In this document: in pieces, positions 255-59,867 of the stretch
How positions within the stretch are numbered: position 1 is the stretch's first letter
Layout of the letters: every line of letters starts with the position of its first letter
Assembly (NCBI RefSeq): GCF_030704305.1
Contig: NZ_CP131935.1
Location: 3,596,001 to 3,660,000, forward strand
Direction: 5' to 3'
Length of the DNA stretch: 64,000 nucleotides
Source: Massilia sp. R2A-15
GTDB lineage: Bacteria > Pseudomonadota > Gammaproteobacteria > Burkholderiales > Burkholderiaceae_D
Notes under the pieces: generated by a model
What the model was told of the DNA's origin: nothing
The model's input: only the letters and a program-made list of their open reading frames with translations
Database searches by the model: none
Translations under genes and position numbers: made by a program

Positions 255-282
255 CGGGGTCTGACCCGCGGGTCAGACCCCG
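255..282. repeat. family A palindrome, copy 1 (perfect)
   Basis: A perfect 28-bp palindrome with arms CGGGGTCTGACCCG and its complement, lying 22 bp after the lipoprotein stop and followed by GTTTTAG. It is the most symmetric member of the dispersed family with arms GGGGTC...GACCCC. It could fold as a terminator-like hairpin, but the T tract is short. Confidence 0.85.
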
Positions 283-360
283 GTTTTAGCTCACCTTCTG
301 CAACAGCCGGGAAATGACGCTACACTGCTTGCAACCGAAATCAAGCAGAAAAGCAGGATC

Positions 361-1422
361 ATGAGCATCACCGACAATATCGAAAATACCAACGTCAGCT
401 CGTTCGCGCGCATGCCTTCGCCGCTCGAGCTGCACCGCAAGCTTCCGCTGACCGACAAGGCGCGCGCCACGGTCATGCAGGGCCGCGAAGCGCTGCGCAA
501 CATCATCGACCGCAAGGACAAGCGCCTGTTCGTGGTGGTCGGCCCGTGCTCGATCCACGACCCGGTAGCCGGCCTCGATTACGCAGCGCGCCTGAAAAAG
601 CTGCAGGCGGACGTCGCCGACACCATGCTGCTGGTGATGCGCGTGTACTTCGAAAAGCCGCGCACCACCACCGGCTGGAAAGGCTACATCAACGATCCGG
701 ACATGGACGACTCGTTCCGCGTCAACGTCGGCATGGAGAAGGCGCGCCAGTTTCTGCTCGACGTGTGCGAACTGGGCCTGCCCACCGCCACCGAGGCGCT
801 CGACCCGATCTCGCCGCAATACCTGGGCGACCTGATCGCCTGGACCGCGATCGGCGCGCGCACCACCGAATCGCAGACCCACCGCGAGATGTCGTCGGGC
901 CTGTCCACGCCGGTCGGCTTCAAGAACGGCACCGACGGCGACATCAGCATCGCCGTCAACGCCATCCTGTCGTCGGCGCATCCGCACTCCTTCCTCGGCA
1001 TCAACGGCGAAGGCAACGTATCGATCGTGCGCACCAGCGGCAACGCCTACGGCCACGTGGTGCTGCGCGGCGGCGACGGCCGGCCGAACTACGATTCGGT
1101 GTCGGTCGCGATTGCCGAGCAGGCGCTGGCCAAGGCCGGCCTGCCCGCCAACCTGGTCGTCGACTGCTCGCACGCCAACAGCTACAAGAAGCCCGAGTTG
1201 CAGCCGCTGGTGATGTCCGACGTGGTGCAACAGATCCGCCACGGGAACAAGTCGCTGGTGGGCGTGATGATTGAATCGAACATCGTCGGCGGGAACCAGA
1301 AGATCCCGGCCGACCTGTCGCAGCTGAAGTACGGCTGCTCGGTGACGGACGGCTGCATCGACTGGGAATCGACCGAAGCGATGCTGCGCGCCGCGCACGC
1401 CGAACTGCTCCAGCGGCCGTAA
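361..1422 (+). CDS. aroG: 3-deoxy-7-phosphoheptulonate (DAHP) synthase, class I
   Basis: Catalyses the first step of the shikimate pathway, condensing phosphoenolpyruvate and erythrose 4-phosphate in the cytoplasm. At 353 residues it matches E. coli AroG/F/H (about 350). Family motifs are intact: GPCSIHDP near residue 61 with the metal-binding Cys, RTTTGWKGYINDP near 101, SSGLSTPVGFKNGTDG near 180, and DCSHANS near 267 with the metal-binding His. An AGGA lies 4-7 bases before the ATG. Which aromatic amino acid inhibits this isozyme cannot be told from the sequence. A REP-like repeat follows the stop. Confidence 0.96.
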   Translation: MSITDNIENTNVSSFARMPSPLELHRKLPLTDKARATVMQGREALRNIIDRKDKRLFVVVGPCSIHDPVAGLDYAARLKKLQADVADTMLLVMRVYFEKPRTTTGWKGYINDPDMDDSFRVNVGMEKARQFLLDVCELGLPTATEALDPISPQYLGDLIAWTAIGARTTESQTHREMSSGLSTPVGFKNGTDGDISIAVNAILSSAHPHSFLGINGEGNVSIVRTSGNAYGHVVLRGGDGRPNYDSVSVAIAEQALAKAGLPANLVVDCSHANSYKKPELQPLVMSDVVQQIRHGNKSLVGVMIESNIVGGNQKIPADLSQLKYGCSVTDGCIDWESTEAMLRAAHAELLQRP

Positions 1423-1434
1423 CCTTCTGATGCT

Positions 1435-1522
1435 GTCGTACCTGCGAAGGCAGGTACCCATACTGAGCCGCTTTTACCTCCGCAGCATGCTCAGTACGGG
1501 TACCCGCCTGCGCGGGTACGAC
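1435..1522. repeat. family B REP-like inverted repeat, copy 1
   Basis: Two hairpin-forming units in inverted orientation: GTCGTACCTGCGAAGGCAGG on the left and the mirrored CCTGCGCGGGTACGAC on the right, joined by a spacer carrying TACTGAG and CTCAGTA. The same architecture recurs at 19210, 29985 and 36763. It lies between two co-oriented genes. Confidence 0.8.
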
Positions 1523-1568
1523 ATTCCATGCTTTACAATGACGGATTCCCCATCTGTCCGCACCTCCC

Positions 1569-2609
1569 ATGATTGTTCTCGGCGTCGAATCCTCCTGCGA
1601 TGAAACCGGCCTTGCGTTGTACGACACGCAACGCGGCCTGCTGTCCCACGCGCTCCACTCGCAGGTGGCGATGCACGAAGAATACGGCGGCGTGGTGCCC
1701 GAGCTGGCCTCGCGCGACCACATCCGCCGCGCCATCCCGCTGCTCGAGCACACGCTGGCCGGCGCCGGCATGAAGCTGTCCGACATCGACGCGATCGCCT
1801 ACACCCAAGGCCCGGGCCTGGCCGGAGCGCTGCTGGTCGGCTCCTCGATCGCCTGCGCGCTAGGCCTGGCCACCGACAAGCCGGTGATCGGCGTGCACCA
1901 CCTCGAAGGCCACCTGCTATCGCCGCTGCTCGCGTCCGAGCCGCCGGCCTTCCCCTTCATCGCGCTGCTGGTCTCGGGCGGGCACACGCAGCTGATGCGC
2001 GTCGACGGCGTCGGCCAGTACACGCTGCTTGGCGAAACGCTCGACGACGCGGCCGGCGAAGCATTCGACAAATCGGCCAAGCTGCTGGGCCTGGGCTATC
2101 CGGGCGGCCCGGCGATCTCGCGGCTGGCCGAATTCGGCGACCCGAATGCCTACAAGCTGCCGCGCCCGATGCTGCACTCGAAAGACTTCAACTTCAGCTT
2201 CTCCGGCCTGAAGACGGCGGTGCTGACGGTGGTGAAGAACCACGAAGAGAAAGTCATCGCCAACATCTGCGAGCAGGACAAGGCCGATATCGCGCGCGGC
2301 TTTGTGGACGCGATCGTCGACGTGCTGACGGCAAAGTGCGTCAGCGCGATCAGGCACACGGGCTTGAAGCGCCTGGTGATCGCCGGCGGCGTCGGCGCCA
2401 ACTCGCAACTGCGCGCCTCGCTCAATGCGGCGGCGGCAAAGAAGAAATTCAAGGTGTTCTACCCAGAGCTGGAGTTCTGCACCGATAACGGCGCGATGAT
2501 CGCGTTCGCCGGCGCCATGCGCCTGCAGATCAATCCGGACGCGGCGAAGAAGGACTACTCGTTCAACGTCCGGCCGCGCTGGGCGCTCGACGAAATCCGC
2601 GACGTGTGA
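1569..2609 (+). CDS. tsaD: tRNA N6-threonylcarbamoyladenosine transferase TsaD
   Basis: Transfers the threonylcarbamoyl group to A37 of ANN-decoding tRNAs, working with TsaB, TsaE and TsaC. The 346 residues fit the Gcp/Kae1/TsaD family. The N-terminus [14 protein letters not shown] is the family start, HHLEGH near residues 109-114 supplies the metal-binding histidines, and [12 protein letters not shown] near 302 carries the conserved Asp. TsaE is encoded about 29 kb away in this window. No neighbouring gene belongs to the same pathway. Confidence 0.97.
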
Positions 2610-2613
2610 GTAT

Positions 2614-2692
2614 CGGGGTCTGGTCCTGCGGACCTGACCCCATCTTCGCTGGTCGGTGCAAAATGGGGTCAGGTCCGAAGGACCAGACCCCG
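2614..2692. repeat. family A palindromes, copies 2 and 3 in inverted orientation
   Basis: Two imperfect palindromes (2614-2641 and 2665-2692), each GGGGTC-GGTCC-GGACC-GACCCC in outline, facing opposite ways across a 23-bp spacer. They start five bases after the tsaD stop. The pair could form two small hairpins or one long one. Confidence 0.85.
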
Positions 2693-2822
2693 ACACGCGT
2701 TGTGTTGCGAACTTGTCTTTCCAATCAAACACTTACAAAGTGTAACGATATCCTACGGTGTTCTCGTCGCCCGCCAAAAAATGGCAAGATCTTACGGTTA
2801 AGGTCTTCCGGAGGTGCGCGCG

Positions 2823-3668
2823 ATGCGGGTTGTAAGTTGGAATATTCACTGGGGATGCGGCAAGGATGGCCGCATCCGGATTCACGCGATCATCGACGTG
2901 CTGCGCAAGCTGAACGCCGACATCATCTGCCTGCAGGAAGTCGCGTCGAACCATCCCGAGCTTGCCGGCAGCGCCAGCGCCAACCAGTTCCGCCAACTGG
3001 CCGGCGCCTTCGGCGGCTACCACTCGGTCATCGAGCCCACCAGTGAGCTTTACCAGAACAACCTGCCGCGCCAGTTCGGCAACCTGCTGCTGTCCAAGTA
3101 CCGCATGACCCAGGTGCACCGCCACCTGCTGCCTTGGCCGCCCGATCCGTCCAGCCCGGCCGGCATGCCGCGCGGCCTGATCGAAACGGTGCTCGACGCA
3201 CCCGCCGGCAAATTGCGCGTGCTGACCACCCACCTCGAATACTATTCGCAGCTGCAGCGCGCCGCGCAGGTACGCCAACTCAAGTACCTGCACTGGGAAG
3301 CGTGCGAACGCGCGAAGATCTTCCAGCCCGACCCGACCCTCGATGCGCCGTTCCAGCTGGGCTTCCGGCCCGGGTCGGCGATCTTCTGCGGCGACTTCAA
3401 CATGACGCCCGGCTCGCCCGAATACCAGGACATGCTGGCGCCGGGCGAAGGCGCCTCGCTGCCGCTGATCGATGCGTGGAGCGCCACGCACCCGAATGCC
3501 AAGCACGCGCCGACGGCCGGCCTGCACGGCTTCGACTGGCCCGAGAAGCCCGACACCTACGACTACTTTTTTGTCACCGACGACCTGGCGCCGCGCGTCA
3601 CGTCGATGGAAGTGATGTCGGAGACGGCGGCGTCGGACCACCAGCCGATCGTGCTCGATCTCACCTGA
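2823..3668 (+). CDS. endonuclease/exonuclease/phosphatase-fold protein
   Basis: A 281-residue metal-dependent phosphodiesterase/nuclease-fold protein. Visible EEP hallmarks are RVVSWNIHW at the N-terminus, IICLQEV with the metal-binding Glu near residue 42, FCGDFNMTPGSPEY near 190, and SDHQPIVLDL at the C-terminus with the catalytic Asp-His. I chose ATG 2823 because GGAGG at 2810-2814 sits eight bases before it; an in-frame GTG at 2814 overlaps that ribosome site and is less likely. The natural substrate (DNA, phospholipid or another phosphodiester) cannot be read. A paralogous fold is encoded at 11361. Confidence 0.85.
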   Translation: MRVVSWNIHWGCGKDGRIRIHAIIDVLRKLNADIICLQEVASNHPELAGSASANQFRQLAGAFGGYHSVIEPTSELYQNNLPRQFGNLLLSKYRMTQVHRHLLPWPPDPSSPAGMPRGLIETVLDAPAGKLRVLTTHLEYYSQLQRAAQVRQLKYLHWEACERAKIFQPDPTLDAPFQLGFRPGSAIFCGDFNMTPGSPEYQDMLAPGEGASLPLIDAWSATHPNAKHAPTAGLHGFDWPEKPDTYDYFFVTDDLAPRVTSMEVMSETAASDHQPIVLDLT

Positions 3669-3690
3669 TTCCGAGCCGCGGCCCAAAGTC

Positions 3691-3787
3691 TGGGGTCAGG
3701 TCCGCCGGAGCGACGGGGACGCCGAGTCCCCATTTTGATTGCAGCCGCGGCCTAAAAAATGGGGTCAGGTCCGCCGGACCTGACCCC
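3691..3787. repeat. family A palindromes, copies 4 (chimeric) and 5 (perfect)
   Basis: Copy 5 (3761-3787) is a perfect odd palindrome with arms GGGGTCAGGTCCG about a central C. Copy 4 (3691-3734) begins as family A but continues into a different hairpin, GGGGAC-GCCGA-GTCCCC, identical to one at 23582-23603. Both copies are preceded by a similar GAGCCGCGGCC/CAGCCGCGGCC stretch, suggesting tandem duplication. They lie between two convergent genes. Confidence 0.85.
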
Positions 3788-3816
3788 GCCTTTGTCGCCG
3801 CCGCAGGCCAAAGCCG

Positions 3817-4623
3817 CTACGCCGCTTGCCTCACCGGCCTCGCCTGCCGGTGATACAAGAACTCCAGCACCCGCGTCCGATACTCGATGTACAGCGGGTC
3901 ATGCGCCAGCGCCACCCGGTCGCGCGGCCGGGCCAGGCGCACCTTCACGATGTCGCCGATGGTCGCCCCCGGCCCGTTCGTCATCATCACGATGCGGTCC
4001 GACAGCAGCACCGCCTCATCCACGTCGTGCGTCACCATCACAACCGTCGATCCGGTCTGCGCGACGATGCGCAGCAGCTCGTCCTGCAGGTGCGCGCGCG
4101 TGAGCGCATCGAGCGCGCCGAACGGCTCGTCCATCAGCAGCACCTTCGGCTCCATCGACAGCGCCCGCGCGATCCCCACACGCTGCTTCATCCCGCCCGA
4201 GATCTCGTTCGGCCGCTTGCTCGCCGCCGCCACCAGGCCGACCAGCGCCAGCGCGTCGAGCGTGCGCGCGCGCAGCTGCGACGTGGACTCCTTCGCCCCG
4301 AACACCCGCTCCACCGCCAGGTACACGTTCTCGAAGCAGGTCAGCCACGGCAGCAGCGAATGGTTCTGGAATACCACGCCACGTTCCGGCGACGGGCCGG
4401 CGATCTCGCGGCCGTTGCAAATCAGGGCGCCCTCGGTGGCGGTGGTCAATCCCGCGATCAGGTTCAGCAAGGTGCTCTTGCCGCAGCCCGAGTGCCCGAT
4501 CAGCGTGACGAACTCGCCCTGCTCCACCGTCAGATTGATGTCGGCCAGCGCGTGGAAGCTGCCCTGCTTCGTTTCGAAGCGCATCTCCGCGTGCTGCACC
4601 TCGATGAATTTTTGCGCTCTCAT
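3817..4623 (-). CDS. ABC transporter ATP-binding protein, NrtD type
   Basis: The 268-residue ATPase of a three-gene nitrate/sulfonate-type importer. Walker A GHSGCGKST, signature SGGMKQRVGIARAL, Walker B VLLMDEPFGALD and the H-loop VTHDVDEAVL are all intact. I placed the start at ATG 4623, where MRAQKFIEV begins the normal ATPase fold; the open frame runs upstream but only into the permease gene. The start lies next to the permease stop at 4625, which suggests translational coupling. By family it energises uptake of nitrate, nitrite, cyanate or a related anion; the true substrate is unproven. Confidence 0.88.
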   Translation of the reverse strand: MRAQKFIEVQHAEMRFETKQGSFHALADINLTVEQGEFVTLIGHSGCGKSTLLNLIAGLTTATEGALICNGREIAGPSPERGVVFQNHSLLPWLTCFENVYLAVERVFGAKESTSQLRARTLDALALVGLVAAASKRPNEISGGMKQRVGIARALSMEPKVLLMDEPFGALDALTRAHLQDELLRIVAQTGSTVVMVTHDVDEAVLLSDRIVMMTNGPGATIGDIVKVRLARPRDRVALAHDPLYIEYRTRVLEFLYHRQARPVRQAA

Positions 4624-4624
4624 G

Positions 4625-5515
4625 TCAGGCCTTCGCTTCTTCGTAAGTGAACGACTTCGCCAGCGCCACCAGCGCCTGCTCCAGCACCAGCCCGACCACG
4701 CCGATGACGACAATCGCGATGATGATGTGCGGGACGTTCAGGTTGTTCCACTCGTCCCAGACCCAAAAGCCGATGCCCACGCCGCCCGTCAGCATCTCGG
4801 CCGCGACGATCACCAGCCACGCGGTGCCGATCGCCAGGCGCACCCCGGTCAGCATGTGCGGCAGCACCGATGGCAGCAGGATTTTGGTGAACACCTTCCA
4901 CTCCGACAGGTTCAGCACACGCGCCACGTTCAGGTAGTCCTGCGGCACGCGCTGCACGCCGGCCGCGGTGTTGATGATCATCGGCCAGATCGAGCAAATG
5001 AAGATAGCCCAGATCGCCGCCGGATGCGCCGCCTTGAACACCAGCAGGCCGATTGGCAGCCAGGCCAGCGGCGACACTGGCTTGAGCAGGCTGACGATAG
5101 GATTGAACATCCCCGCCAAAAACCTGAAGCGCCCCACCATGAAGCCAAGCGGGATGCCCACAGCGGCGGCCAGGCCGAAGCCGATCGCCACGCGCTTGAG
5201 CGAGGCGATGATGTTCCAGCCGATGCCCTGGTCGTTCGGGCCCCTGCTGTAGAACGGGTCGGAGAACAGCTTTACCGCCTCCGCCCACGTCACTGCCGGC
5301 GACGGGAAGGTGCTGTTCTTCACCGAGATGATCTGCCACACCAGCACCAGCAATGCGAGCCCCAGCACAGGCGGCAGCACCGCCAGCAAGAAGGCGCGGC
5401 TGCGCGGACGCCCGCCGATGCGCACACCCTGGTTCGCCAGGCGCTGGCTGCGCCGCGGCTTGCCAGTCGCAGCGGCCACTAACGGGGCCGCAACCGATTC
5501 GAGTACTGCGCTCAT
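4625..5515 (-). CDS. ABC transporter permease, NrtB type
   Basis: A 296-residue inner-membrane permease of the nitrate/sulfonate/bicarbonate family. It has a basic N-terminal tail, a first membrane segment near residues 48-68 (LAVLPPVLGLALLVLVW) and about five more. The EAA-like cytoplasmic loop that contacts the ATPase is recognisable near LPSVLPHMLTGVRLAIG (about 210-226). It is the middle gene of the operon: the binding-protein gene ends ten bases upstream and the ATPase gene begins at once downstream. Confidence 0.88.
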   Translation of the reverse strand: MSAVLESVAAPLVAAATGKPRRSQRLANQGVRIGGRPRSRAFLLAVLPPVLGLALLVLVWQIISVKNSTFPSPAVTWAEAVKLFSDPFYSRGPNDQGIGWNIIASLKRVAIGFGLAAAVGIPLGFMVGRFRFLAGMFNPIVSLLKPVSPLAWLPIGLLVFKAAHPAAIWAIFICSIWPMIINTAAGVQRVPQDYLNVARVLNLSEWKVFTKILLPSVLPHMLTGVRLAIGTAWLVIVAAEMLTGGVGIGFWVWDEWNNLNVPHIIIAIVVIGVVGLVLEQALVALAKSFTYEEAKA

Positions 5516-5525
5516 GCGATTCTCC

Positions 5526-6761
5526 TCAGGCCTTGATCTTGAATGAGTCGGCGTAGGCCTTGGGGTTCTTGCCGTCCCAGACTAGGCCGTCGATCAGCTT
5601 CGCGCTGCGCATCGGCGACTTCGGCACGCTCACCTTGGCCAGCGCGGCCGCCTCCTTGTACAGCGCGACCTGGTTGACCGCGGTGGCGGTGGCCAGATAG
5701 TCCGGCTCGCCCTTGAGCAGTCCCCAGCGCTTGTGCTGGGTCATGAACCACATCCCGTCCGACAGGTAGGGGAAGTTGACCGCGCCGTCGTTGTAGAACT
5801 TCATGTGGTTCGGGTCGTCCCAGGTCTTGCCCATGCCGTTCTGGTAGCGCCCGAGGATGCGCTGGTTGATCACGTCGACCGACGTGTTCACGTACGACTT
5901 GTCGGCGATGGTCTCGGCCATCTTGGTCTTGTTCGACAGCGAGGCGTCGATCCACTTGCTGGCGTCGAGGATTGCGGCGACCAGCGCGCGCGCCGTGTTC
6001 GGATGCGCCTTGACCCAGTCGGCCGTGGTGCCCAGCGTCTTTTCGGGATGATCGCGCCAGATGTCCTGGGTGGTGGCCGCGGTGACGCCGACGGAATCGA
6101 CGATGGCGCGGTGGTTCCACGGCTCGCCCACGCAGAAGCCGTCCATGTTCCCGACCCGCATATTGGCCACCATCTGCGGCGGCGGCACGGTGATCACCTT
6201 GGCGTCCTTCATCGGGTTGATGCCGTAGGTCGCCAGCCAGTAGTACAGCCACATCGCGTGGGTGCCGGTCGGGAAGGTCTGGGCAAAAGAATATTCGCGC
6301 TTGTCGGCCTGCATCAGCCTGGCCAGCGACGGGCCGTCCACGCCGCCCTTGTCGGCCACCTTTTTCGCCAGCGTGATGGCCTGTCCGTTCTGGTTCAGGT
6401 TCATCAGCACGGCCATGTCCTTCTTCGGGCCGCCGATGCCCATCTGGACGCCGTACACCAGGCCGTACAGCACGTGGGCCGCGTCGAGCTCGCCGTTGAC
6501 CAGCTTGTCGCGCACGCTGGCCCAGGAAGACTCCTTGCTGGGGACGATCCGGATGCCGTACTTCTTGTCGAAGCCGAGCACCGATGCCATCACCACCGAC
6601 GCGCAATCGGTCAGCGGAATGAAGCCGATCTTCACTTCTTCTTTTTCGGGCTTGTCCGAGCCGGCTGCCCAGACGCCGCCGCTGGCCAGGCCAGTGAGCG
6701 TGGCGCCCCCCGCCTTGAGGATGGTGCGGCGGATGCGGCTGGTATTGGTGTTGTTGGTCAT
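5526..6761 (-). CDS. ABC transporter substrate-binding protein, NrtA/CmpA type
   Basis: A 411-residue periplasmic or membrane-anchored binding protein. The N-terminus has an RR-x-x-L-K-A-G-G pattern (RRTILKAGG) followed by a hydrophobic run to VWAAG, resembling a Tat signal. The mature protein opens with VKIGFIPLTDCASVVMA, typical of NrtA-like proteins, and contains NGELDAAHVLYGLVYGVQ and DGFCVGEPWN, conserved in the anion-binding lobe. I set the start at 6761 (MTNNTNTSRIRRT) rather than the upstream 6794. It is the first gene of the importer operon. No nitrate reductase or response regulator lies next to it, so nitrate is only the family-based guess. Confidence 0.85.
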   Translation of the reverse strand: MTNNTNTSRIRRTILKAGGATLTGLASGGVWAAGSDKPEKEEVKIGFIPLTDCASVVMASVLGFDKKYGIRIVPSKESSWASVRDKLVNGELDAAHVLYGLVYGVQMGIGGPKKDMAVLMNLNQNGQAITLAKKVADKGGVDGPSLARLMQADKREYSFAQTFPTGTHAMWLYYWLATYGINPMKDAKVITVPPPQMVANMRVGNMDGFCVGEPWNHRAIVDSVGVTAATTQDIWRDHPEKTLGTTADWVKAHPNTARALVAAILDASKWIDASLSNKTKMAETIADKSYVNTSVDVINQRILGRYQNGMGKTWDDPNHMKFYNDGAVNFPYLSDGMWFMTQHKRWGLLKGEPDYLATATAVNQVALYKEAAALAKVSVPKSPMRSAKLIDGLVWDGKNPKAYADSFKIKA

Positions 6762-6900
6762 CGTTCCCTCGTTGTCATCGGCTGGTGTTACCAATGCATC
6801 AGCAATTGGCGTGCCAGCTTTGCAACGAGGGAATGTCAGGCAATGGCGCGCTTTTCAGGCACCGATGTTGTGCGGCGCACCAAAAGCGCGCTCGCTACGC

Positions 6901-7542
6901 TCAGGACTGGGCGGCGATGTCGCGCAGTGCGCGCTCGAACACTTCGGGCGGCTGGCCACCGGAGATCAGGTGCTTCTGGTTGATGATGATGGCCGGGACC
7001 GAATTGATGCCGGCGCGCTGGAAGAACTGCTCGGCCTCGCGCACTTCGTCGGCGAAGGTATCGGTCGCCAGGATGCGCGACGCTTCGACCGGGTCGAGGC
7101 CGACCTGTTCGGCCAGGCGTACCAGCACCTCGTGCGAACCGGGGTTCTCGCCTGCGGTGAAGTAGGCCGAGAACAGCGCCATCTTCAGGTCGCGCTGCTT
7201 GCCCTGCGCCTCGGCCCAGTGCAGCAGGCGGTGCGCGTCGAAGGTGTTGTAGATGCGGTCGCGCGAGCCAAACTCGAAGCCGAGCTGCTCGCCGCGGGCG
7301 CGGATCATTTCGCTGGTCTGGGCGCGCTGCTCGGGGCTGGCGCCGTATTTCTGGGCCAGGTGCTCGCCGATGTCCTGGCCTTCCGGCGCCATGTTCGGAT
7401 TGAGCTCGAAGGGCTGGAAATGGATTTGCGCGTCGACCACGTCGCCGACATTGTCCAGCGCCTGCTCGAGCGCCTTGAGGCCGATGACGCACCAGGGGCA
7501 CGACACGTCCGACACAAAATCAATCCTCATTTCCTTGCTCAT
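6901..7542 (-). CDS. DsbA-family oxidoreductase, FrnE-like
   Basis: A 213-residue cytoplasmic thioredoxin-fold protein. MRIDFVSDVSCPWC places a CPWC active site near residues 15-18, and there is no signal peptide. The helical insert and the C-terminal AGINSVPAIIINQKHLISGGQPPE match the FrnE/2-hydroxychromene-2-carboxylate isomerase-like branch of the DsbA family. It lies 139 bp upstream of the nrtA-like gene on the same strand, so co-transcription is possible but not shown. The exact redox substrate is unknown. Confidence 0.88.
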   Translation of the reverse strand: MSKEMRIDFVSDVSCPWCVIGLKALEQALDNVGDVVDAQIHFQPFELNPNMAPEGQDIGEHLAQKYGASPEQRAQTSEMIRARGEQLGFEFGSRDRIYNTFDAHRLLHWAEAQGKQRDLKMALFSAYFTAGENPGSHEVLVRLAEQVGLDPVEASRILATDTFADEVREAEQFFQRAGINSVPAIIINQKHLISGGQPPEVFERALRDIAAQS

Positions 7543-7600
7543 GATCCATCCCTTCAGTAGATAAGGGGCGTATATGGGAGCGGAACGAGGAAATTCAAGA

Positions 7601-7612
7601 TGGGGACAGGTC
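7601..7612. repeat. left half of family A copy 6, split by the IS element
   Basis: TGGGGACAGGTC ends directly at the left inverted repeat of the IS3 element. Joined to GGTCCGCAGGACCAGTCCCC at 8870-8889 after removing one copy of GGTC, it restores a complete family A palindrome with GGGGAC...GTCCCC arms. Confidence 0.8.
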
Positions 7613-7642
7613 TGAGATGCACCGGTTTGGTGGACAGGTTAA

Positions 7643-8536
7643 TTAGCAACACATGTGCTGCGCCTGGACCTGCGCCGGCGTTTTGTAGCCGAGCGATTGA
7701 TGAAGTCGGATTGTATTGTAGTACACCTCAATATGATCTTTGACGGCGGCAACCGCGGCAGCGTGATCTTCATACACGAAGTGATGCGTCAACTCGTTCT
7801 TCAGGTTCGAGAAGAAGCTCTCCGCAACCGCGTTATCGTGACAGTTCCCTTTGCGGCTCATGCTCGCAATTGCGCCCTTCGACTCGAGGTAGTCGCGAAA
7901 CTTCTTCGAGCCGTAAGGCGATCCCTGATCCGTGTGGCAAACGAGCCCTGGCGGCGGGCGATATCGCTCCATGGCCGCTTCGATCGTCTGCACGGCCAGG
8001 GCGGCGGTCTGGCTCGTTCCCATCGCCCAGCCAATGACAGCGTGCGTGGACAAATCCAGGAATATCGACAGATGGCTTATCCCCGTCCGCGTGGTGATTT
8101 GCGTCATGTCGCCCACCCACACGCGGTTTGGAACGGCGACCTTGAATTTCCGGTTCACCAGATTCGGGGCTGGCGGTTCTTTTTGTTGCGGTGCTGGTTT
8201 GCTTTGCAGTCGTTGGGTTCGAAGCGTCTGAATGCCGGCGCAACGTCGTAGACGTGCCACTCGATTTCGCCCGCATGGATTTTTTTCCGCGCGTAGCACC
8301 CGCCACATCTTGATGACGCCTGCAGCGCGCCGGTGTTCCGCGTCGATCTCGTGAAGCCTCGCAATCAAGGCGATGTCCGCGCTATCGCGCGGGCTCATAG
8401 GGCGACAGCGCGAGGCATGGTAGCCGCTTCGGCTTACGCCAAGTAAGCGGCACATCAGCCCGACCGGATACATCTCGGCATGCTCGCGAATGAAGGCGTA
8501 CCTCAGCGCTATCGGCGCATGAAGTACGCCTCGGCT
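7643..8536 (-). CDS. IS3 transposase catalytic part (OrfB)
   Basis: The integrase-like half of the transposase, read by -1 frameshifting from OrfA. It begins in the SRGVLHAPIALRYAFI region. An HTH-like stretch (CRLLGVSRSGYHASR) leads into the rve domain. The DDE residues are Asp in VGDMTQI, Asp in CHTDQGSPYG and Glu in NAVAESFFSNLKNE, and the last two are separated by exactly 35 residues, the DD(35)E spacing of this family. It ends with YYNTIRLHQSLGYKTPAQ, the usual C-terminal signature. The predicted OrfAB fusion is about 392 residues. The frame stays open upstream to 8677, but that part overlaps OrfA. Confidence 0.92.
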   Translation of the reverse strand, partial: SRGVLHAPIALRYAFIREHAEMYPVGLMCRLLGVSRSGYHASRCRPMSPRDSADIALIARLHEIDAEHRRAAGVIKMWRVLRAEKNPCGRNRVARLRRCAGIQTLRTQRLQSKPAPQQKEPPAPNLVNRKFKVAVPNRVWVGDMTQITTRTGISHLSIFLDLSTHAVIGWAMGTSQTAALAVQTIEAAMERYRPPPGLVCHTDQGSPYGSKKFRDYLESKGAIASMSRKGNCHDNAVAESFFSNLKNELTHHFVYEDHAAAVAAVKDHIEVYYNTIRLHQSLGYKTPAQVQAQHMCC

Positions 8537-8820
8537 TTTTTTAGAATTTCGAGCTCCAGTGCCAGGCGAAGATTCTCCTTGCGAAGCCGAGTCAGCTCGT
8601 CTTCCTCGCCAGCTGGCGGGCGCCCAGGCGGTCGAAACGCCAAGTCCGGGCCGACCAAGTCGACCCGCTTCGCCCATTTATAAAGCTGATTTCGACGCAC
8701 GCCGAGCTCTCGCGCCAGCGCCGCGGCGTTATCGCATTGCTTCAGACGTTCAACCGCTTGGAGCTTGAACTCCGGGCTAAAGACCTGGTTTTCAGATGAT
8801 TTTACGAGTTTGGTATCCAT
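8509..8820 (-). CDS. IS3 OrfA, DNA-binding part with frameshift site
   Basis: A 103-residue helix-turn-helix and leucine-zipper protein. FSPEFKLQAVERLKQCDN begins the HTH_Tnp_1-type domain, LGVRRNQLYKWAKRV is the recognition region, and RLRKENLRLALELEILKKA is the coiled coil. Near the end the minus strand reads seven A residues followed by G (8542-8535). Sliding back one base there moves the ribosome into the OrfB frame to make the OrfAB transposase. OrfA itself ends with a TAG 21-23 bases after the site. Confidence 0.92.
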   Translation of the reverse strand: MDTKLVKSSENQVFSPEFKLQAVERLKQCDNAAALARELGVRRNQLYKWAKRVDLVGPDLAFRPPGRPPAGEEDELTRLRKENLRLALELEILKKAEAYFMRR

Positions 8821-8869
8821 GGAACGTATTGTCCCCTATTTGGATGTCCACCAAACTCGGTACATCTCA

Positions 8870-8933
8870 GGTCCGCAGGACCAGTCCCCGGCTTTCGGCA
8901 GCACCGGGGTCTGGTCCTGCGGACCTGACCCCA
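8870..8933. repeat. right half of split family A copy 6, then copy 7
   Basis: 8870-8889 (GGTCCGCAGGACCAGTCCCC) is the right half of the palindrome interrupted by the IS. A second, whole copy follows at 8905-8932 in the opposite sequence orientation. Together they fill the gap between the IS and the 3' end of plsY. Confidence 0.8.
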
Positions 8934-8936
8934 TTT

Positions 8937-9566
8937 TCACTTCTTCTTCGGCGTCGCCGCAGCCGTTTTGCTGCCGCCGATCTTGCTTTCCTTGCCGGCG
9001 ATCAGGTTCGAAATGTTCTTGCTATGGCGCCACATCAGCATCGCGCTCATGACGACCACCGCAAACAGCTTCTCGTCCACGCCGAACAGCAGGCCATAGT
9101 AGAACGGCGCGAACAGCGCGGCGATCAGCGCCGCCAGCGAGGAATAGCGGAACGCGTACGCGATCACCAGCCAGGTCACCAACGTCGCCACGCCCAGCCA
9201 CGGATTGAGGCCGAACAGCACGCCCAGCGCCGTCGCCACGCCCTTGCCGCCGACGAAGCGGAAGAACACCGGCCACAGGTGGCCGATGAACACCGCCAGC
9301 GCGACCATGGCGATGCCCGCTTCGCTCACCTCATAGCGGTCGGCCAGCAGCTGCGCCAGCCACACCGCGAACCAGCCCTTGAGCGCGTCGCCGATCAGGG
9401 TAGCGATCGCGGCCTTCTTGTTTCCGCTGCGCAGCACGTTGGTGGCGCCGGGATTTTTCGAGCCGTAGGTGCGCGGATCGGACAGGCCGAACACGCGGCT
9501 CATCACCACCGCGAACGAAATCGAGCCGATCAGGTAGGCGGCAATCACAAAAATCAGGGTGTTCAT
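8937..9566 (-). CDS. plsY: glycerol-3-phosphate acyltransferase PlsY
   Basis: Transfers the acyl group from acyl-phosphate to glycerol 3-phosphate, the first acylation in phospholipid synthesis, at the inner membrane. The 209 residues with about five membrane segments match the family. The three PlsY motifs are present: [11 protein letters not shown] near residue 14, [17 protein letters not shown] near 34-50, and [11 protein letters not shown] near 105. The C-terminus carries an extra Lys-rich tail (TPKKK). A family A palindrome lies directly after the stop. Confidence 0.95.
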
Positions 9567-9875
9567 TGTTTCTCTCTATTGTTATCGGTCCCGGCCTCAG
9601 GTGCCGGGCTCGTGAATATACACCATCCTCGCAGCCCCGCGAAATCGGCCGCGGCGAAGGCCGGCGTTCCATATTTACAACAATCCCATTCTCGCCCATC
9701 GCGCACAAGCTCTCCCTATGACAGTTGAGATCGAGGCGACATTCCGTCGCTAACGACCGCACAATAAGTTACCTGACATAAAAGTCATGGCGCAAAATGG
9801 AGATTGGCATTTTTGACACATTTTGCCCGTCGCCGCAAGCCGAAGGCCCATCGATTCCCCTCACCAGGAGCAGCC
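9567..9875. other. gene-free divergent intergenic region
   Basis: About 309 bp between plsY (minus) and the secreted protein gene (plus). It must hold both promoters, but I see no convincing -35/-10 pair, repeat or hairpin. Short open frames here lack ribosome sites. Confidence 0.4.
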
Positions 9876-10811
9876 ATGCACGCGCGTTCGAAAATGATCG
9901 TCTTCATCCCATTGAGCCTGGTCCTGGTGCTCCTTGCAACGCCCGCAAAGGCCGAGCAATACGACCTGAGTGCCCCGCGGTGCGCGTCGGGTTACCTCCA
10001 CAACGCCGGCAAATGCGAAGTCGATCCCGCGGTCGCCAGATACACACGAGATCAATGCGACGCGGTAAATGGCAAGATGGATCCCGAATGCAAGCTGGCA
10101 GGGCCGGCGCCAGCACCGTACTGCCGCGCCGTGGCCGGGGGAATGAATACACTCAAAGGAGACAAGTGTATCTTCGACACAAAACCAGAGACCAGCGCCA
10201 GCGGCGACTATGTGGGTGACCACTTCAAGATCGTCGCGATGCCCGACGGAGCAAATCCGTTTCGCCTGGGGGGCAGCAATGGTCAAAGTTTGAAGGTGTT
10301 GTCGCAGAAACCCTTGGGCAAGGATGACAGGATGTTGACTGTCTACAATGAAAGCGACAGCCTTCATATCGCGCGAGAAGTAAAAGCCAGCGACCTGATC
10401 GAGTTCGGCGCCAGGCGCACAGGCTATACCTATGGCGCGCTCGCGATTCCCTACAAATACTATGCAGGCGACAAGAGCTTCGGGTCAGGCGTCGGAATCG
10501 GGCCATATGTGGGCTGGCGCCTGGGAACCCCAGGATCGGCTCACACGTTCGCGGTCGCTGCCACCATCGGCAGTGTCAAGGGCGAGGTACGCGACGCACA
10601 GGACAAGATCATCAGCACTCCAGACCTGATGGCCTATTCCATTGCTGGCGGGGTGATGTGGGACATCAGCAAGGCGCAGGGCCTCAGGCCGTTCAAGCTG
10701 GGCGTGTTCGTCGGTGTCGACTCCGTCAGCAGCGACAACGTCGTGAAGTTCAGGAACAATCGCAAGCCGTGGGTCGCCTTGCAAATTGGTTTCGACTTCA
10801 CCGACAACTAG
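9876..10811 (+). CDS. secreted or outer-membrane protein of unknown function
   Basis: A 311-residue protein I do not recognise. ATG 9876 is chosen because CCAGGAG lies just upstream and the protein then starts with a good signal peptide (MHARSKMIVFIPLSLVLVLL, cleavage likely after PAKA). The first 80 mature residues contain several cysteines (APRCASGYL, AGKCEVD, RDQCDAV, PECKLA, PYCRAV, DKCIFD), probably disulfide-bonded. From about residue 190 alternating, glycine-rich strands (SGVGIGPYVGWRLG, LGVFVGVD) ending near a final Phe (IGFDFTDN) resemble a small outer-membrane beta-barrel. The envelope location is an inference. Confidence 0.65.
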   Translation: MHARSKMIVFIPLSLVLVLLATPAKAEQYDLSAPRCASGYLHNAGKCEVDPAVARYTRDQCDAVNGKMDPECKLAGPAPAPYCRAVAGGMNTLKGDKCIFDTKPETSASGDYVGDHFKIVAMPDGANPFRLGGSNGQSLKVLSQKPLGKDDRMLTVYNESDSLHIAREVKASDLIEFGARRTGYTYGALAIPYKYYAGDKSFGSGVGIGPYVGWRLGTPGSAHTFAVAATIGSVKGEVRDAQDKIISTPDLMAYSIAGGVMWDISKAQGLRPFKLGVFVGVDSVSSDNVVKFRNNRKPWVALQIGFDFTDN

Positions 10812-10833
10812 CAGCGCCGGCGCCCGCCCGTCC

Positions 10834-11322
10834 TCAGCTCAGGGCCACCTCGACCGCGCGCGCCTCCAGCAGGCGCGGCAGCTCCTGCGGCGATATGCCG
10901 ATCAGGTAACCGCGCCGGCCGCCGTTGATGTAAATGAGCGGCAAATCGAGGATCGTTTTTTCGACATACACCGGCATTGTTTTCCGCGTGCCGAACGGGC
11001 TGGTGCCGCCAACGAGGAAGCCCGTGTGGCGGTTGGCCACTTCCGGCTTGCACGGCTCGATCTTCTTGCAGCCGACCTGGCGCGCCAGTTCCTTGGTCGA
11101 TACCTTGCAGTCGCCATGCATCAGCACGATCAGGGGCTTGGCGAACTCATCCTCCATGACCAGGGTCTTCACGACCGCGTGTTCATCGACGCCAAGCTCG
11201 CGCGCCGATACCGCGGTGCCGCCCTTCTCCTCGTAGGCGTAGGGATGCTCGCTGAACGCGACCTGCTGCTTGCGCAGGAACTGGGTCGCGGGCGTTTCTG
11301 AGATGTGCTCTTTCCTGGCCAT
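10834..11322 (-). CDS. ybaK: Cys-tRNA(Pro)/Cys-tRNA(Cys) deacylase, YbaK/EbsC type
   Basis: A 162-residue editing domain that hydrolyses mischarged aminoacyl-tRNA in the cytoplasm. The order TPATQFLRKQQVAF, YEEKGGTAVSARELG, VMHGDCKVSTKELAR and VGGTSPFGTRK is the normal YbaK sequence, including the Lys in DCKVSTKELA and the GGTSPFG loop at the active site. Length equals E. coli YbaK (159). It is convergent with the preceding secreted-protein gene and divergent from the EEP gene at 11361, whose start is 39 bp away. Confidence 0.93.
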   Translation of the reverse strand: MARKEHISETPATQFLRKQQVAFSEHPYAYEEKGGTAVSARELGVDEHAVVKTLVMEDEFAKPLIVLMHGDCKVSTKELARQVGCKKIEPCKPEVANRHTGFLVGGTSPFGTRKTMPVYVEKTILDLPLIYINGGRRGYLIGISPQELPRLLEARAVEVALS

Positions 11323-11360
11323 GCGTGATACGCTGTTCGTAAATTGTGGAGCTTCGTATT

Positions 11361-12335
11361 ATGCAGCAGGAAATTCGCTTTGCCACCTTCAACCTCCTCA
11401 ACCTGGCCCCGGCCGGCGCGAAGCTGTACGACAACCTCGTGCCGCACACCGAGGAAGAATTCGAGGCGAAAATCAACTGGACCGCGCGCCAGATCGACTT
11501 GCTCGACGCCGACGTGATCGGCTTCCAGGAGATCTTTTCGCAGTCGGCGCTGAAGCTGGCCCTGTCGCGCACCCGCAAGTATCGCGACGCCATCCACGTC
11601 GGCTTCGATCCCGACCCGAACGCCGAGCGCCTGACACCGAGCGTGGCGCTGGTATCGCGCCTGCCGCTGGCCTGCGCCGGCGTCGAATATCCGCACTTCC
11701 CCGACGGCGTCGCCATGCCCGCCGGCAGCCGCGACGCCGCCCGCTTCGCGCGCCCGGTCGTGCACGCCCAGGTGATCGCCTCGCCCGACGTGACGATCGA
11801 CGTGGTGGTGGTACACCTGAAATCGAAGCGGCCCGACTACCGCACCGGCGACAGCAGCGAGGACGCGCAACTGTATGCGCTGGCCTGCCTGCGCTCCCTG
11901 ATCCGGCGCGGCACCGAGGCGGTGGCGCTGCGCGTCCTGCTCAGCAACCTGGCGCACGAACGGCGCCGTCCGCGCGTCGTGCTGGGCGACTTCAACGACG
12001 TCGCCGACGCGGTCACCACCGGCATCGTGATCGGCGCCGGTGCCCCGCTTGGCGAGCGCCTGTTCGACGCCTGCCAGCTGCAGCGCAGCGGCGACTGCGC
12101 GCGCCACGTCGGCTTCTCCAGCATGCACGACGGCCAGTACACGACCATCGACCATATCCTGGTGTCGGAGGAATTCAACCCTGCGCTGCCGAACGCGATC
12201 GGCGAAGTGGTCGACGTGACCTATCTGAACGACCACCTGGTGCTGGGATTGCCGGAGGCGTCCGATCACGGCCAGGTGCTGGCGCGCATCCGCCTGTTCG
12301 ACGTGGGCGACCGCCTCATGGACGCAGGCGCGTGA
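11361..12335 (+). CDS. endonuclease/exonuclease/phosphatase family protein
   Basis: A 324-residue EEP-fold protein without a signal peptide. IRFATFNLLNL opens the fold, DVIGFQEI carries the metal-binding Glu near residue 57, VVVVHLKSKRPDY is the central strand, VVLGDFNDVADAV the catalytic Asp-Asn, and EASDHGQVLA the final Asp-His. GGAG at 11348-11351 supports ATG 11361; the in-frame GTG at 11346 overlaps that site. Its last 20 bp overlap the 3' end of the convergent PAS-GGDEF-EAL gene. It resembles nucleases rather than sphingomyelinases, but the substrate is not determinable. Confidence 0.85.
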   Translation: MQQEIRFATFNLLNLAPAGAKLYDNLVPHTEEEFEAKINWTARQIDLLDADVIGFQEIFSQSALKLALSRTRKYRDAIHVGFDPDPNAERLTPSVALVSRLPLACAGVEYPHFPDGVAMPAGSRDAARFARPVVHAQVIASPDVTIDVVVVHLKSKRPDYRTGDSSEDAQLYALACLRSLIRRGTEAVALRVLLSNLAHERRRPRVVLGDFNDVADAVTTGIVIGAGAPLGERLFDACQLQRSGDCARHVGFSSMHDGQYTTIDHILVSEEFNPALPNAIGEVVDVTYLNDHLVLGLPEASDHGQVLARIRLFDVGDRLMDAGA

Positions 12336-16081: not shown

Positions 16082-16084
16082 GCC

Positions 16085-19204: not shown

Positions 19205-19209
19205 CCGCC

Positions 19210-19319: not shown

Positions 19320-19333
19320 AAGCCAAAAAAGAT

Positions 19334-19360
19334 GGGGTCCGATTCTGCGAACCTGACCCC
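19334..19360. repeat. family A palindrome, copy 8 (diverged)
   Basis: Outer arms GGGGTC and GACCCC are kept, but the inner arms are GATTC/GAACC rather than GGTCC/GGACC. It lies between the REP-like copy at 19210 and the small Lys-rich gene, at the convergent 3' ends. Confidence 0.75.
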
Positions 19361-23559: not shown

Positions 23560-23656
23560 CGGGGTCTGCTCCCGCGGAACTACGGGGACGCCGAGTCCCC
23601 ATTGTCATTTCGCCCCGCATTCCTAAAATGGGGTCAGGTCCGCGGGACCTGACCCC
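23560..23656. repeat. family A palindromes, copies 9a (chimeric) and 9b (perfect)
   Basis: 9b (23630-23656) has the full GGGGTCAGGTCC/GGACCTGACCCC arms. 9a (23560-23603) begins with GGGGTCTGCTCC and ends in the ACGGGGACGCCGAGTCCCC hairpin, which is identical over 22 bp to 3713-3734. Both lie inside the dct operon, between dctP and dctQ, so they could lower dctQM expression relative to dctP. Confidence 0.8.
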
Positions 23657-27441: not shown

Positions 27442-27471
27442 CGGGGTCTGGTCCTGCGGACCTGACCCCAT
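27442..27471. repeat. family A palindrome, copy 10
   Basis: GGGGTCTGGTCC...GGACCTGACCCC, starting seven bases after the dctR stop and followed by ATTTT. In this orientation the hairpin plus T-run could serve as a weak terminator for the dctSR transcript. Confidence 0.8.
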
Positions 27472-30074: not shown

Positions 30075-30081
30075 GGGCGGA

Positions 30082-33041: not shown

Positions 33042-33878
33042 ATGAACGCCATTACCCCGGCCACGTTCGGCCAGCTTCCGGCTGTCCGGATCACCGCCGC
33101 CGACGGCGCGCAAGCCGTCGTCACGCTGTATGGCGCCCACCTCGTGTCGTGGAAGGGCGCCGACGGCCAGGAACGGATTTTCTGCAGCGCGAAGTCGGCG
33201 CTCGATGGCAGCCGCGCGATCCGCGGCGGCGTGCCCGTCATCTTCCCGCAGTTTAACGAGCGCGGTTCGGGCATGCGCCACGGCTTCGCGCGCGTGTCCA
33301 CGTGGGCGCTGGGCGAGCACGGCGCCGACGGCGATACGTCGTTTGCCGAATTCGAGCTGGCGCCGAACGACCTGGCGCCGGAACGCGCCGCGGCCTGGCC
33401 GCACGATTTCCGGCTGCGCCTGCGCGTGACGGTTGGCGCAAACAAGCTGGCGATGGCGCTGGAAGTGGACAACCGCGGCGCCGATGCGTTCGCGTTTTCG
33501 TGCGCGCTGCACACCTATCACCTGGTCGATTCAATCGGCGCGGTCAGGATCGACGGACTGCAGGCCGGCCCGCTGGCGATCGGCGACACGCTCGACGAGA
33601 TTTTCTACGGGGTGAAGGGGCAAGTGACCTTGCACGCCGGGTCGCGCAAGGTCGAACTGGATCAGGATGGGTTCACCGATGCGGTGGTGTGGAATCCGGG
33701 CGCGGCGAATGCGGCGGCGATGCCGGACCTTGAGGACGACGAATACCAGCGCTTCGTCTGCATCGAGCCGGCCTGCATCGAGCCGGTGACGCTTGCGGGC
33801 GGCGCCCAGTGGCGCGGCCACTACGGGGTCTCAAGCCAGATGGGGTCAGGTCCGCAGGACCAGACCCCGGCTTCGTGA
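33042..33878 (+). CDS. D-hexose-6-phosphate mutarotase, YeaD type
   Basis: A 278-residue aldose-1-epimerase-fold enzyme interconverting glucose-6-phosphate anomers. GAHLVSWKGADGQERIF, AIRGGVPVIFPQF, MRHGFARVSTW and ALHTYHLVDSI carry the conserved Arg and His residues of the family. GAGGAG lies before the ATG. The normal protein should end soon after WRGHYGV; the remaining residues (SSQMGSGPQDQTPAS) are encoded by a family A palindrome, so the original stop seems to have been lost or replaced. That tail is probably unimportant for activity. Confidence 0.9.
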   Translation: MNAITPATFGQLPAVRITAADGAQAVVTLYGAHLVSWKGADGQERIFCSAKSALDGSRAIRGGVPVIFPQFNERGSGMRHGFARVSTWALGEHGADGDTSFAEFELAPNDLAPERAAAWPHDFRLRLRVTVGANKLAMALEVDNRGADAFAFSCALHTYHLVDSIGAVRIDGLQAGPLAIGDTLDEIFYGVKGQVTLHAGSRKVELDQDGFTDAVVWNPGAANAAAMPDLEDDEYQRFVCIEPACIEPVTLAGGAQWRGHYGVSSQMGSGPQDQTPAS

Positions 33879-33924
33879 CGCGGCGCCGACGTCATCGGGG
33901 TCTGGTCCTGCGGACCTGACCCCA
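33841..33924. repeat. family A palindromes, copies 11 and 12 in inverted orientation
   Basis: Copy 11 (33841-33869) lies inside the 3' end of the mutarotase reading frame. Copy 12 (33896-33923) lies after its stop, facing the other way. The pair separates convergent mutarotase and carbonic anhydrase genes. Confidence 0.85.
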
Positions 33925-58705: not shown

Positions 58706-58713
58706 ACAAGAAA

Positions 58714-58740
58714 ATGGGGTCAGGTCTGCAGGATCAGCCT
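58714..58740. repeat. family A palindrome, copy 13 (degenerate)
   Basis: ATGGGGTCAGGTCTGCAGGATC then CAGCCTCC; the left arm is kept and the right arm has decayed. It lies eight bases after the membrane protein stop. Confidence 0.6.
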
Positions 58741-58855
58741 CCACGTGGCTCATTGCGACGGATCATTTCGATTGGGCAGCTTTTCCAATAGGCTAGCGAA
58801 GTCGCACGGCATGTTTTCGACGCGACATTCCGCCTCAACCTTCCGGAGAGCTATC

Positions 58856-59218
58856 GTGCCTTATGTCGCAATGGATCCTCGAAAATTCAACAAGACCGCT
58901 GTGGGAAACGGCCACTGCGTCGCCTATGCGCGGGCGGCTGCGTTGATGCCGCATACTGGAGTCTGGCGTAAGGGCAAGCAGGTACAAGGTGACAATACTA
59001 TTGCAGTCGGGACCGCCATAGCAACGTTCGACGAAAATGGGCGTTACGGGAACAAGGTGAACGGAACTTCCCATGTTGCGATCTACCTTGGCCAAAGCCC
59101 GATTGGTATTCAAGTCTTGGATCAATGGGTAGGTCAACCAGTACATGAACGAACAATCAATTTCAGACTAGCGCCGCGCGAGGTCAACGATGGTCGAAAC
59201 TATTATGTGGTTGAGTAA
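58856..59218 (+). CDS. BPSL0067-family protein, candidate type VI amidase effector
   Basis: A 120-residue protein matching the BPSL0067 family. NGHCVAYARAAALMP supplies a candidate catalytic Cys near residue 19 and GTSHVAIYLGQ a His near 65, the Cys-His arrangement of NlpC/P60-like amidases. The family appears related to Tae-type peptidoglycan amidases delivered by type VI secretion. GTG 58856 follows CGGAGAG by five bases; there is no signal peptide, as expected for a translocated effector. The next gene overlaps it by 29 bp and encodes an exported protein, a typical immunity partner. No vgrG or other T6SS gene is nearby, so the role is inferred. Confidence 0.7.
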   Translation: MPYVAMDPRKFNKTAVGNGHCVAYARAAALMPHTGVWRKGKQVQGDNTIAVGTAIATFDENGRYGNKVNGTSHVAIYLGQSPIGIQVLDQWVGQPVHERTINFRLAPREVNDGRNYYVVE

Positions 59219-59708
59219 GCCCCGAGCATTTGTGCTGCTGTTGGCCATAAGCATGTTGTTAGCGACTGGTCGCGCTGTCGCGTCTTCGGGCCAAGAGTGT
59301 GTCGGCGAATCGCCGACGGCGGTAACCCGCTGGGTATGGAAAAATCGGCCGGGCCTAAACGCGCCCGACGCCAGTCGATTTCTCGCCTCTGACTTTCTCG
59401 AATCGATCCGGCGCGATGCGGCGCGCGCCACCCAACGGGATGAACCTTGCGCCATTTGCGAAGGGGACCTCTGGACTAATTCGCAGGAAGGCGAAGCGCG
59501 ACCTCCCATGACATTCGCGTTGGCCAAACGCGACGGCAATCATGCGGAGGTTGTGTACGCATTCCGGTTTTCGGTTGAACCACATCAGCCGGTCGAACAG
59601 CGCACAACGCACATCATCCTGCGCAAGGAATCCGGATGCTGGAAGATCGATGACATGCGCCACGGCGCCGACGATTCCGTCAAGCGCTCGGTGAAGGCGA
59701 ATCGATGA
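59190..59708 (+). CDS. exported protein, probable immunity partner
   Basis: A 172-residue protein with a signal peptide (KPRAFVLLLAISMLLATGRA, cleavage near VAS), so it acts in the periplasm. The mature part has a Cys pair (ECVGESP, EPCAICEGD), beta-strand-rich FALAKRDGNHAEVVYAFRFS and a C-terminal CWKIDDMRHG, a pattern seen in DUF3828-like and other small immunity-type proteins. ATG 59190 gives the 29-bp overlap with the amidase-like gene; Met6 at 59205 is an alternative. Periplasmic location matches what would be needed to block a peptidoglycan amidase. Confidence 0.6.
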   Translation: MVETIMWLSKPRAFVLLLAISMLLATGRAVASSGQECVGESPTAVTRWVWKNRPGLNAPDASRFLASDFLESIRRDAARATQRDEPCAICEGDLWTNSQEGEARPPMTFALAKRDGNHAEVVYAFRFSVEPHQPVEQRTTHIILRKESGCWKIDDMRHGADDSVKRSVKANR

Positions 59709-59735
59709 AACGCGGGATGGCGCGGTAAGCGAAAA

Positions 59736-59867
59736 ATGGTGTCACGCCCGCGGACCAAGAGCTGGGGTCAGGTCCGGCGGACCTGCCCCCGGATTTGTCG
59801 CCGCCGCCGATTCTACTGCGGCGCCGTAAACGAAGAAGGGGTCAGGTTCTGCGAACCTGACCCCATT
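59736..59867. repeat. family A palindromes, copies 14-16
   Basis: Three copies in 130 bp: a decayed one (59736-59757), 59764-59790 (GGGGTCAGGTCCGGCGGACC, right arm altered) and 59838-59864 with arms GGGGTCAGGTTC and GAACCTGACCCC. They fill the gap between the immunity gene and the convergent protease gene. Confidence 0.75.

Follow-up and report, generated by a model that had tools for sequence, protein, structure and literature searches.

Background

Two kinds of described system stand closest to a family of short hairpins dispersed over a 64-kb stretch of the Massilia sp. R2A-15 genome (G000:C1:3596001-3660000, hereafter the window; whole genome 5,028,452 bases), and to RAYT2, a gene outside the window that encodes its candidate companion transposase. 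One comprises the repetitive extragenic palindromes (REPs), the REPINs (REP doublets forming hairpins) and the REP-associated tyrosine transposases (RAYTs). In the portions of the literature compared here, Nunvar et al. 2010 (PMC2817692) detected only REPs headed by GT(A/G)G, GTAG and the mismatched stem position both influence activity in E. coli (PMC8266576), and RAYTs are single-copy genes that are vertically inherited (PMC8049555). The other comprises the TIRYTs, tyrosine transposases associated with terminal inverted repeats (TIRs), and the TIRtrons. The sections of Di Nocera et al. 2013 (PMC3733652) that were compared describe TIRYT units with GGGGWSAS ends and moderately abundant end families, most ends being unrelated to REPs, and suggest TIRtrons as a possible clue to the origin of REPs. 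According to the available parts of PMC6006769, TnpA-REP subclass 2.1 probably corresponds to the TIRYTs (20 of 26 match, all of these with a helix-turn-helix, HTH), no REP-like sequences lie beside subclasses 2.1 and 2.3, and atypical REPs lacking GT[AG]G accompany subclass 2.6 and class 3.

Measured against these partial descriptions, the Massilia hairpins resemble the canonical REPs and REPINs of E. coli, Pseudomonas and Stenotrophomonas in being imperfect palindromes of 20-40 bp with a 5' head and a stem mismatch, present at high copy number with an intergenic bias (hundreds of intergenic copies), in inverted pairs, and with a single-copy cognate RAYT flanked by repeats. They differ in their head, which is AARAT, and A-rich in the related genome G004, instead of GT[AG]G; RAYT2 differs from canonical RAYTs in being nested among long TIRYTs, outside groups 2 and 3. 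The head alone is not new in kind, because the atypical REPs of subclass 2.6 and class 3 also lack GT[AG]G (PMC6006769). With TIRYTs and TIRtrons the likeness is that the length, HTH tail and GGGGWSAS ends of its relatives put the enzyme in the same branch, and that the end families come in dimers and clusters; two short enzymes without the HTH tail, and repeats that are 27-bp REP-like hairpins with more than 700 copies in one genome, set the Massilia system apart. CGTC-tagged REPs (PMC3733652) are likewise short tagged palindromes in dimers, but the main family here has no CGTC tag and does have a companion transposase. The first-pass annotation of the window knew of no described family with this sequence, and none that matches came up in the searches made of the open-licence PMC literature; the end sequence GGGGTCAG does, however, fit the published TIRYT motif GGGGWSAS (PMC3733652).

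As far as the literature compared extends, the family is a variant beyond existing descriptions, with an A-rich head, an HTH-less enzyme of TIRYT descent and an outer stem common to the longer palindromes of sister species. It combines large size and linkage to a RAYT with a head other than the canonical GT[AG]G, and is an exception to the absence of REP-like sequences beside subclass 2.1 enzymes given in the available text of PMC6006769. A short and a long form occur within one genus, at one locus in three species, which makes the change of end and enzyme behind the question of REP origin directly testable and offers a rare view of how such bacterial repeats may begin.

Size, Form and Placement of the Family

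The hairpins are probably REP elements, many of them arranged as REPINs, that constitute the family of RAYT2 and derive from TIRYT-type ends. A search of the 5.03-Mb genome with the pattern GGGGTCNGGTCCNNNGGACCNGACCCC found 703 places at up to three mismatches (667 at up to two) and none with the reversed-pattern control. The counts below refer to a sample of 864 kb, made up of the window and 40 stretches of 20 kb each. It contains 117 copies at up to four mismatches, and its reversed sequences contain none. At least one copy occurs in 33 of the 41 stretches, those sampled in the region 0.64-3.06 Mb also carry copies, and 78 of the 117 are identical to the scored core. The pattern at up to two mismatches was absent from the 79 other genomes searched, G001-G004 among them, and a plasmid search with the 33-nt unit gave no match. 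GC skew of the sampled stretches was too noisy to orient copies by replichore.

The REP unit is asymmetric and consists of a head, AARAT, followed by a 27-bp core in which the stem GGGGTC-A-GGTCC, the loop GCA and the stem GGACC-A-GACCCC succeed one another. Most copies (87/117) have the oriented Y form, defined as a class by its A.A mismatch; their head reads A (82%), A (93%), A or G (91%), A (91%) and T (93%), their loop is GCA in 81% and GCG in 16%, and a G comes next after the distal stem in 68%. The Z form, with an A-T at the mismatch pair, accounts for 23 copies, and seven have neither form. Two copies resembling the Z form lie in G257 (C39:4306-4334 and C133:1217-1245), an 86% complete draft genome of another genus, and may be due to transfer, contamination or kinship.

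A neighbour less than 200 bp away exists for 62 of the 117 copies, and 27 of the 32 neighbouring pairs are Y-Y. All 27 are inverted, like several pairs first noticed in the window, with 14 heads-in, 13 heads-out and spacers of 14-90 bp; in the window, the pairs 2615/2665 and 33842/33897 each fold into one hairpin (z -10.6 and -13.1). The compensating changes reported in the arms are present and exceed the expectation for independent columns, but they are fewer than was first implied, 78 copies being exact. Double changes number 14 among all copies against 2.0 expected (9 of the 14 at one pair) and 9 among the 41 distinct sequences against 2.4 expected (most at pair 5). With 23 distinct G004 sequences included as well, hand-picked from match listings with symmetric copies and most three-mismatch rows excluded, the figure becomes 58 against 15.9, largely through between-species differences at pairs 10 and 11. 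Such counts ignore relatedness, and they support selection on the hairpin without proving it.

Placement was assessed with a gene caller trained on the sample, which called 733 genes (82.7% coding). Of the 117 copies, 113 are intergenic, compared with 15% of random points (a further 2% fall at stretch edges), and three of the four genic copies are centred within 25 bases of a gene end. Of the 105 copies beside a stop, 55 are no more than 15 bp away from it (5.7% for random points between genes). When gaps of 30 bp or more are sorted by gene orientation, a copy is present in 34 of the 69 between convergent genes, in 42 of the 285 tandem gaps and in 6 of the 94 divergent gaps, that is, in 34/69 convergent gaps versus 48/379 others; the preference for stops and convergent genes seen at first in the window holds across the sample.

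The Enzyme and its Relatives

Only two Y1_Tnp genes are present in G000, RAYT1 (L031) and RAYT2 (L032). The second encodes 195 aa (G000:C1:4219387-4219974) and is likely the companion transposase that the first-pass annotation had proposed to look for, an HUH/Y1 gene with family copies on both sides. A Y copy stands 4 bp after its stop, with the head reaching the stop codon, and two Z-type copies precede it, the closer at a distance of 59 bp to the start; the heads of the two nearest copies point to the gene, a configuration that 3 of 654 sampled genes show. RAYT2 scores above the PF01797 cut-off and retains HYH and RYVVLNPVRA (HUH motif and catalytic Tyr). Y1_Tnp is the only domain of RAYT2 and of the 202-aa enzyme of G004, and neither has a C-terminal HTH. 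A match to the solved E. coli TnpA-REP (4er8) was discarded as circular, the E. coli enzyme being in the alignment.

Relatives of RAYT2 were found in 46 of 80 genomes at E <=1e-20 and in 105 of 392 at 1e-45, its own genome counted. The long relatives have about 280-310 aa and a C-terminal HTH, for which the two that were scanned gave weak matches at the C end, below Pfam cut-offs. Among the matches listed, the frames shorter than 240 aa belong to G000 and G004, where the core is complete, or to four further entries whose match stops at residue 155-163; all others listed have 242-415 aa.

The long genes are bounded by characteristic ends. Exact GGGGTCAG upstream and CTGACCCC downstream, each within 300 bp, occur at 19 of 28 long-RAYT loci; at least one exact end is present at 22, and both ends are found at 23 when one mismatch is allowed. 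For comparison, of the 442 bins (300 bp each) into which these loci were divided, ends included, 24 have GGGGTCAG. Examples are GGGGTCAGGTCTGACATTCGGACA in G001 and G003 and GGGGTCAGGTCCTCCATTTCTACACGAGCTGA in a Duganella; in G001 and G003 the RAYT takes its final codons and its stop from the end itself. GGGGTCAG is also present in the REP of G000, which has the GGGGWSAS end. A tree of 45 enzymes places the two short ones together as a pair (support 100/98), which groups in turn with the long enzymes of G001, G003 and Massilia eurypsychrophila (98/90). Excluded from the tree were L037 (internal stop), L078, L079 and L081 (partial), and L209 and L035 (duplicates); also outside the set were L049 and L063, which match L034 exactly over the overlap. 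dN/dS (the nonsynonymous to synonymous rate ratio) was undefined or saturated in several pairs and was not used.

G000 itself holds a decayed unit of 1.2 kb (L105:1106-2301; G000:C1 about 226106-227301) with two diverged long-type GGGGTCAG ends (3 and 6 mismatches) and pieces of the long-RAYT C-terminal tail in two frames. A lone diverged long-type end, AGGGGCAGGACTGCCATTCAGACACAAGCTCAG, with 5 mismatches, lies at window position 42674.

Two Forms in One Genus

Long enzymes together with dispersed long GGGGTCAG ends characterize G001-G003, and short enzymes together with 27-bp hairpins characterize G000 and G004. Long-end matches at up to three mismatches (forward/reverse) number 116/122 in G001, 18/22 in G002, 136/146 in G003, 2/2 in G000 and 1/0 in G004, with none in the controls. 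The G004-type pattern at up to one mismatch gave 26/27 in G004, 4/4 in G000, 0/1 in G001, and none in G002, G003 or the controls; a looser version gave 36/37 in G004 and 2/3 in controls. Thirteen places in G001, selected from the listing with close +/- matches chosen, comprise 11 single palindromes of 60-64 bp, and the head AAAAGCT is present in 6 of the 13; the G004 head is A-rich, with AAAGC in 13 of 34 flanks.

The RAYT is flanked by a TonB-receptor gene and dinB in G000, in G001 (with one extra gene between) and in G004, where it (L035) is inverted within the gap relative to G000 (L032/L211). As in G000, the enzyme gene of G004 has its own hairpins on both sides, facing it heads-in, and one of them encodes the last residues of the enzyme. 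In G002, dinB is adjoined only by a receptor piece, and the 9 kb fetched contain no RAYT; no dinB match was found in G003, which is 82% complete. The outer 11 bases, GGGGTCAGGTC, are common to the G000 hairpin, the same-locus ends in G001, and G003.

Mechanism, Origin and Alternatives

The proposed mechanism is that a single-stranded REP folds into a short hairpin in which the A-rich 5' head and the A.A mismatch would mark one strand; RAYT2 would bind the marked strand, cut it and rejoin it, seeding new copies that would persist where they do least harm, chiefly just beyond stop codons. The family probably descends from a longer unit of TIRYT type, namely from its inverted ends (GGGGTCAGG...). 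If so, in the line of G000 and G004 the long palindromic ends would have been reduced to roughly the outermost 11-12 bp and a loop of 3 nt, while the enzyme of the same line would have lost its C-terminal HTH. More broadly, and only tentatively, we suggest that the collapse of a tyrosine-transposase unit flanked by TIRs is one way in which a REP family can form, the ends going from about 60 to 27 bp and the HTH being shed where the hairpin now sits, followed by amplification to REP numbers.

Several points weigh against this account. We infer that RAYT2 moves the hairpins, that head and mismatch have the roles proposed and that the long form preceded the short. Flanking by itself is weak evidence in G000, given that a copy less than about 150 bp away on each side is seen at 4 of the 654 genes sampled, heads-in at three of these four. 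RAYT2 reaches 79.7 bits against the NCBIfam REP transposase model NF047646, whose cut-off is 80, and no solved structure was matched by the profile of its family once the E. coli enzyme was left out. Two direct Y-Y pairs, 3508336/3508384 and 3689708/3689763, exist outside the sample. The A.A mismatch occurs in both G000 and G004, but the G004 pattern required it, so that its conservation there is partly pattern choice, and symmetric G004 copies exist too. G004, a 610-contig draft, carries a second, long RAYT. The contrast between short and long rests on one pair of sister enzymes and is one event at most, and each species is represented by a single genome.

The likeness to TIRYT ends could instead reflect shared constraint or convergence within a RAYT2 REP family, the short hairpins being separate in origin and the long ends lost without any shrinking. 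We consider this unlikely. Ends of the GGGGTCAG type stand at many RAYT loci of the order, so a short common foot could be functional, and no palindromes of intermediate length were found, which also weighs against the main reading; however, the shared outer bases GGGGTCAGGTC and the AAAGC head of the G004 flanks, found again within AAAAGCT in G001, speak for common descent. It is less probable still that a different enzyme moves the copies as ordinary miniature inverted-repeat transposable elements (MITEs), whether RAYT1 or a DDE transposase, and we regard that as very improbable. RAYT1 is the only other Y1_Tnp gene and also sits amid GGGTC-type palindromes, but its palindrome type has just six members in 864 kb, and 27-bp units with a strand-marking head and mismatch would suit HUH enzymes better than DDE enzymes.

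The first-pass annotation had left the choice between a REP/MITE-type family and terminators. Hundreds of intergenic hairpins, inverted pairs and a flanked HUH gene favour the former, and we think it improbable that transcription termination, or stabilisation of mRNA 3' ends, is the chief role of the hairpins and keeps them under selection at gene ends. The strong excess just after stops and in convergent gaps would suit such a role. Y copies beside stops, however, have their tail to the gene in 26 cases and their head in 25; their orientation is therefore not set by termination. Window positions 1-20000, scanned for terminators, gave 17 sites, compared with 14.0 on average (sd 4.7) after shuffling, which is no excess. 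Single copies may nevertheless act as terminators, because three of the 17 sites (3715, 3761 and 19336) are family members or chimeras. The absence of the G000 pattern from the 79 other genomes is unlike a needed signal, and the near-identity of the copies points to recent copying.

Members in the Window

The palindrome positions named by the first-pass annotation are present in the sequence, offset by about one base at most. Its figure of about 17 copies takes in relatives as well: the main family has 11 copies at up to three mismatches and 12 at up to four, and the remainder are relatives, namely the second family, chimeras, and truncated or degenerate forms. The features are given below with their strand where one was assigned and, in parentheses, the basis of each call.

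255..282, second-family palindrome (GGGTCTGACCC type, as at the flanks of RAYT1), outside the main family (sequence, pattern search)
2615..2641, - strand, Y-REP 5 bp beyond the tsaD stop, in a heads-in inverted pair with 2665 (sequence, gene calls, pairing)
2665..2691, + strand, Y-REP with loop GAA, partner of 2615 (sequence, folding)
3692..3731, chimera of a REP 5' part followed by the hairpin GGGGACGCCGAGTCCCC at 3715-3731 (sequence)
3761..3787, + strand, Z-REP with a perfect stem and the head AAAAAAT at left (sequence, form classification)
8867..8891, + strand, truncated partner of 8906 (sequence)
8906..8932, - strand, Y-REP 4 bp beyond the stop of plsY (itself on the - strand), head facing the gene (sequence, gene calls)
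19334..19360, diverged copy with 3 mismatches and inner arm ATTC/GAAC (sequence)
23561..23600, chimera of the same make as 3692, within the dctP-dctM cluster (sequence, gene identification)
23630..23656, + strand, Z-REP with head AAAAT at left, between dctP and a small TRAP permease gene (sequence, gene identification)
27443..27469, - strand, Y-REP 7 bp beyond the stop of a FixJ-like response-regulator gene (sequence, gene calls)
33842..33868, + strand, Y-REP within the final codons of open reading frame (ORF) 33042-33878, in a heads-out pair with 33897 (sequence, pairing)
33897..33923, - strand, Y-REP, partner of 33842 (sequence, folding)
59736..59762, degenerate copy (sequence)
59764..59790, Z-type copy with a single arm change (sequence)
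59838..59864, - strand, Z-type copy with the compensated inner pair GGTTC/GAACC, head at right, 21 bp off the stop of ORF 59886-61850 (-) (sequence, pair-change count)

The pair described as lying inside the dct operon is 23561/23630; it stands between dctP (23720-24706, -) and a weakly matched gene for the small tripartite ATP-independent periplasmic (TRAP) permease (22788-23444, -), after which comes dctM. An Rfam scan of the window gave a tRNA as its sole match.

Other Repeats

The second palindrome family, GGGTCTGACC...GGTCAGACCC, is represented in the window at 256 and has six members in the sample. RAYT1 is flanked by palindromes of the GGGTCAGACC type, other than the main family, and as a mover of the main-family hairpins it was rejected on account of these flanks and of their small number. 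Genomes of genus g5 (e.g. G082, G310 and G261) carry 1-5 copies each of ATGGGGTCAGACCCGNCGGGTCTGACCCC, which is near the second family in sequence.

The small hairpin GGGGACGCCGAGTCCCC occurs in the window at 3715-3731 and 23584-23600, and also in L100, L105, L108 and L111, with 17 occurrences in 864 kb and none in the control. It is located after GAC inside members of the main and second palindrome families, as though inserted into hairpins. A further inverted-repeat family, CAGGNACCCATGCTGA, has 58 matches in 864 kb (control 0), those in the window being at 1451, 19214-19292, 30001-30080 and 36763-36848. Its unit is GTCGTTCCTGCG-AAGG-CAGGAACCCA and resembles the CGTC-tagged REPs with a CCA tail, arranged in dimers, of the published descriptions that were compared.

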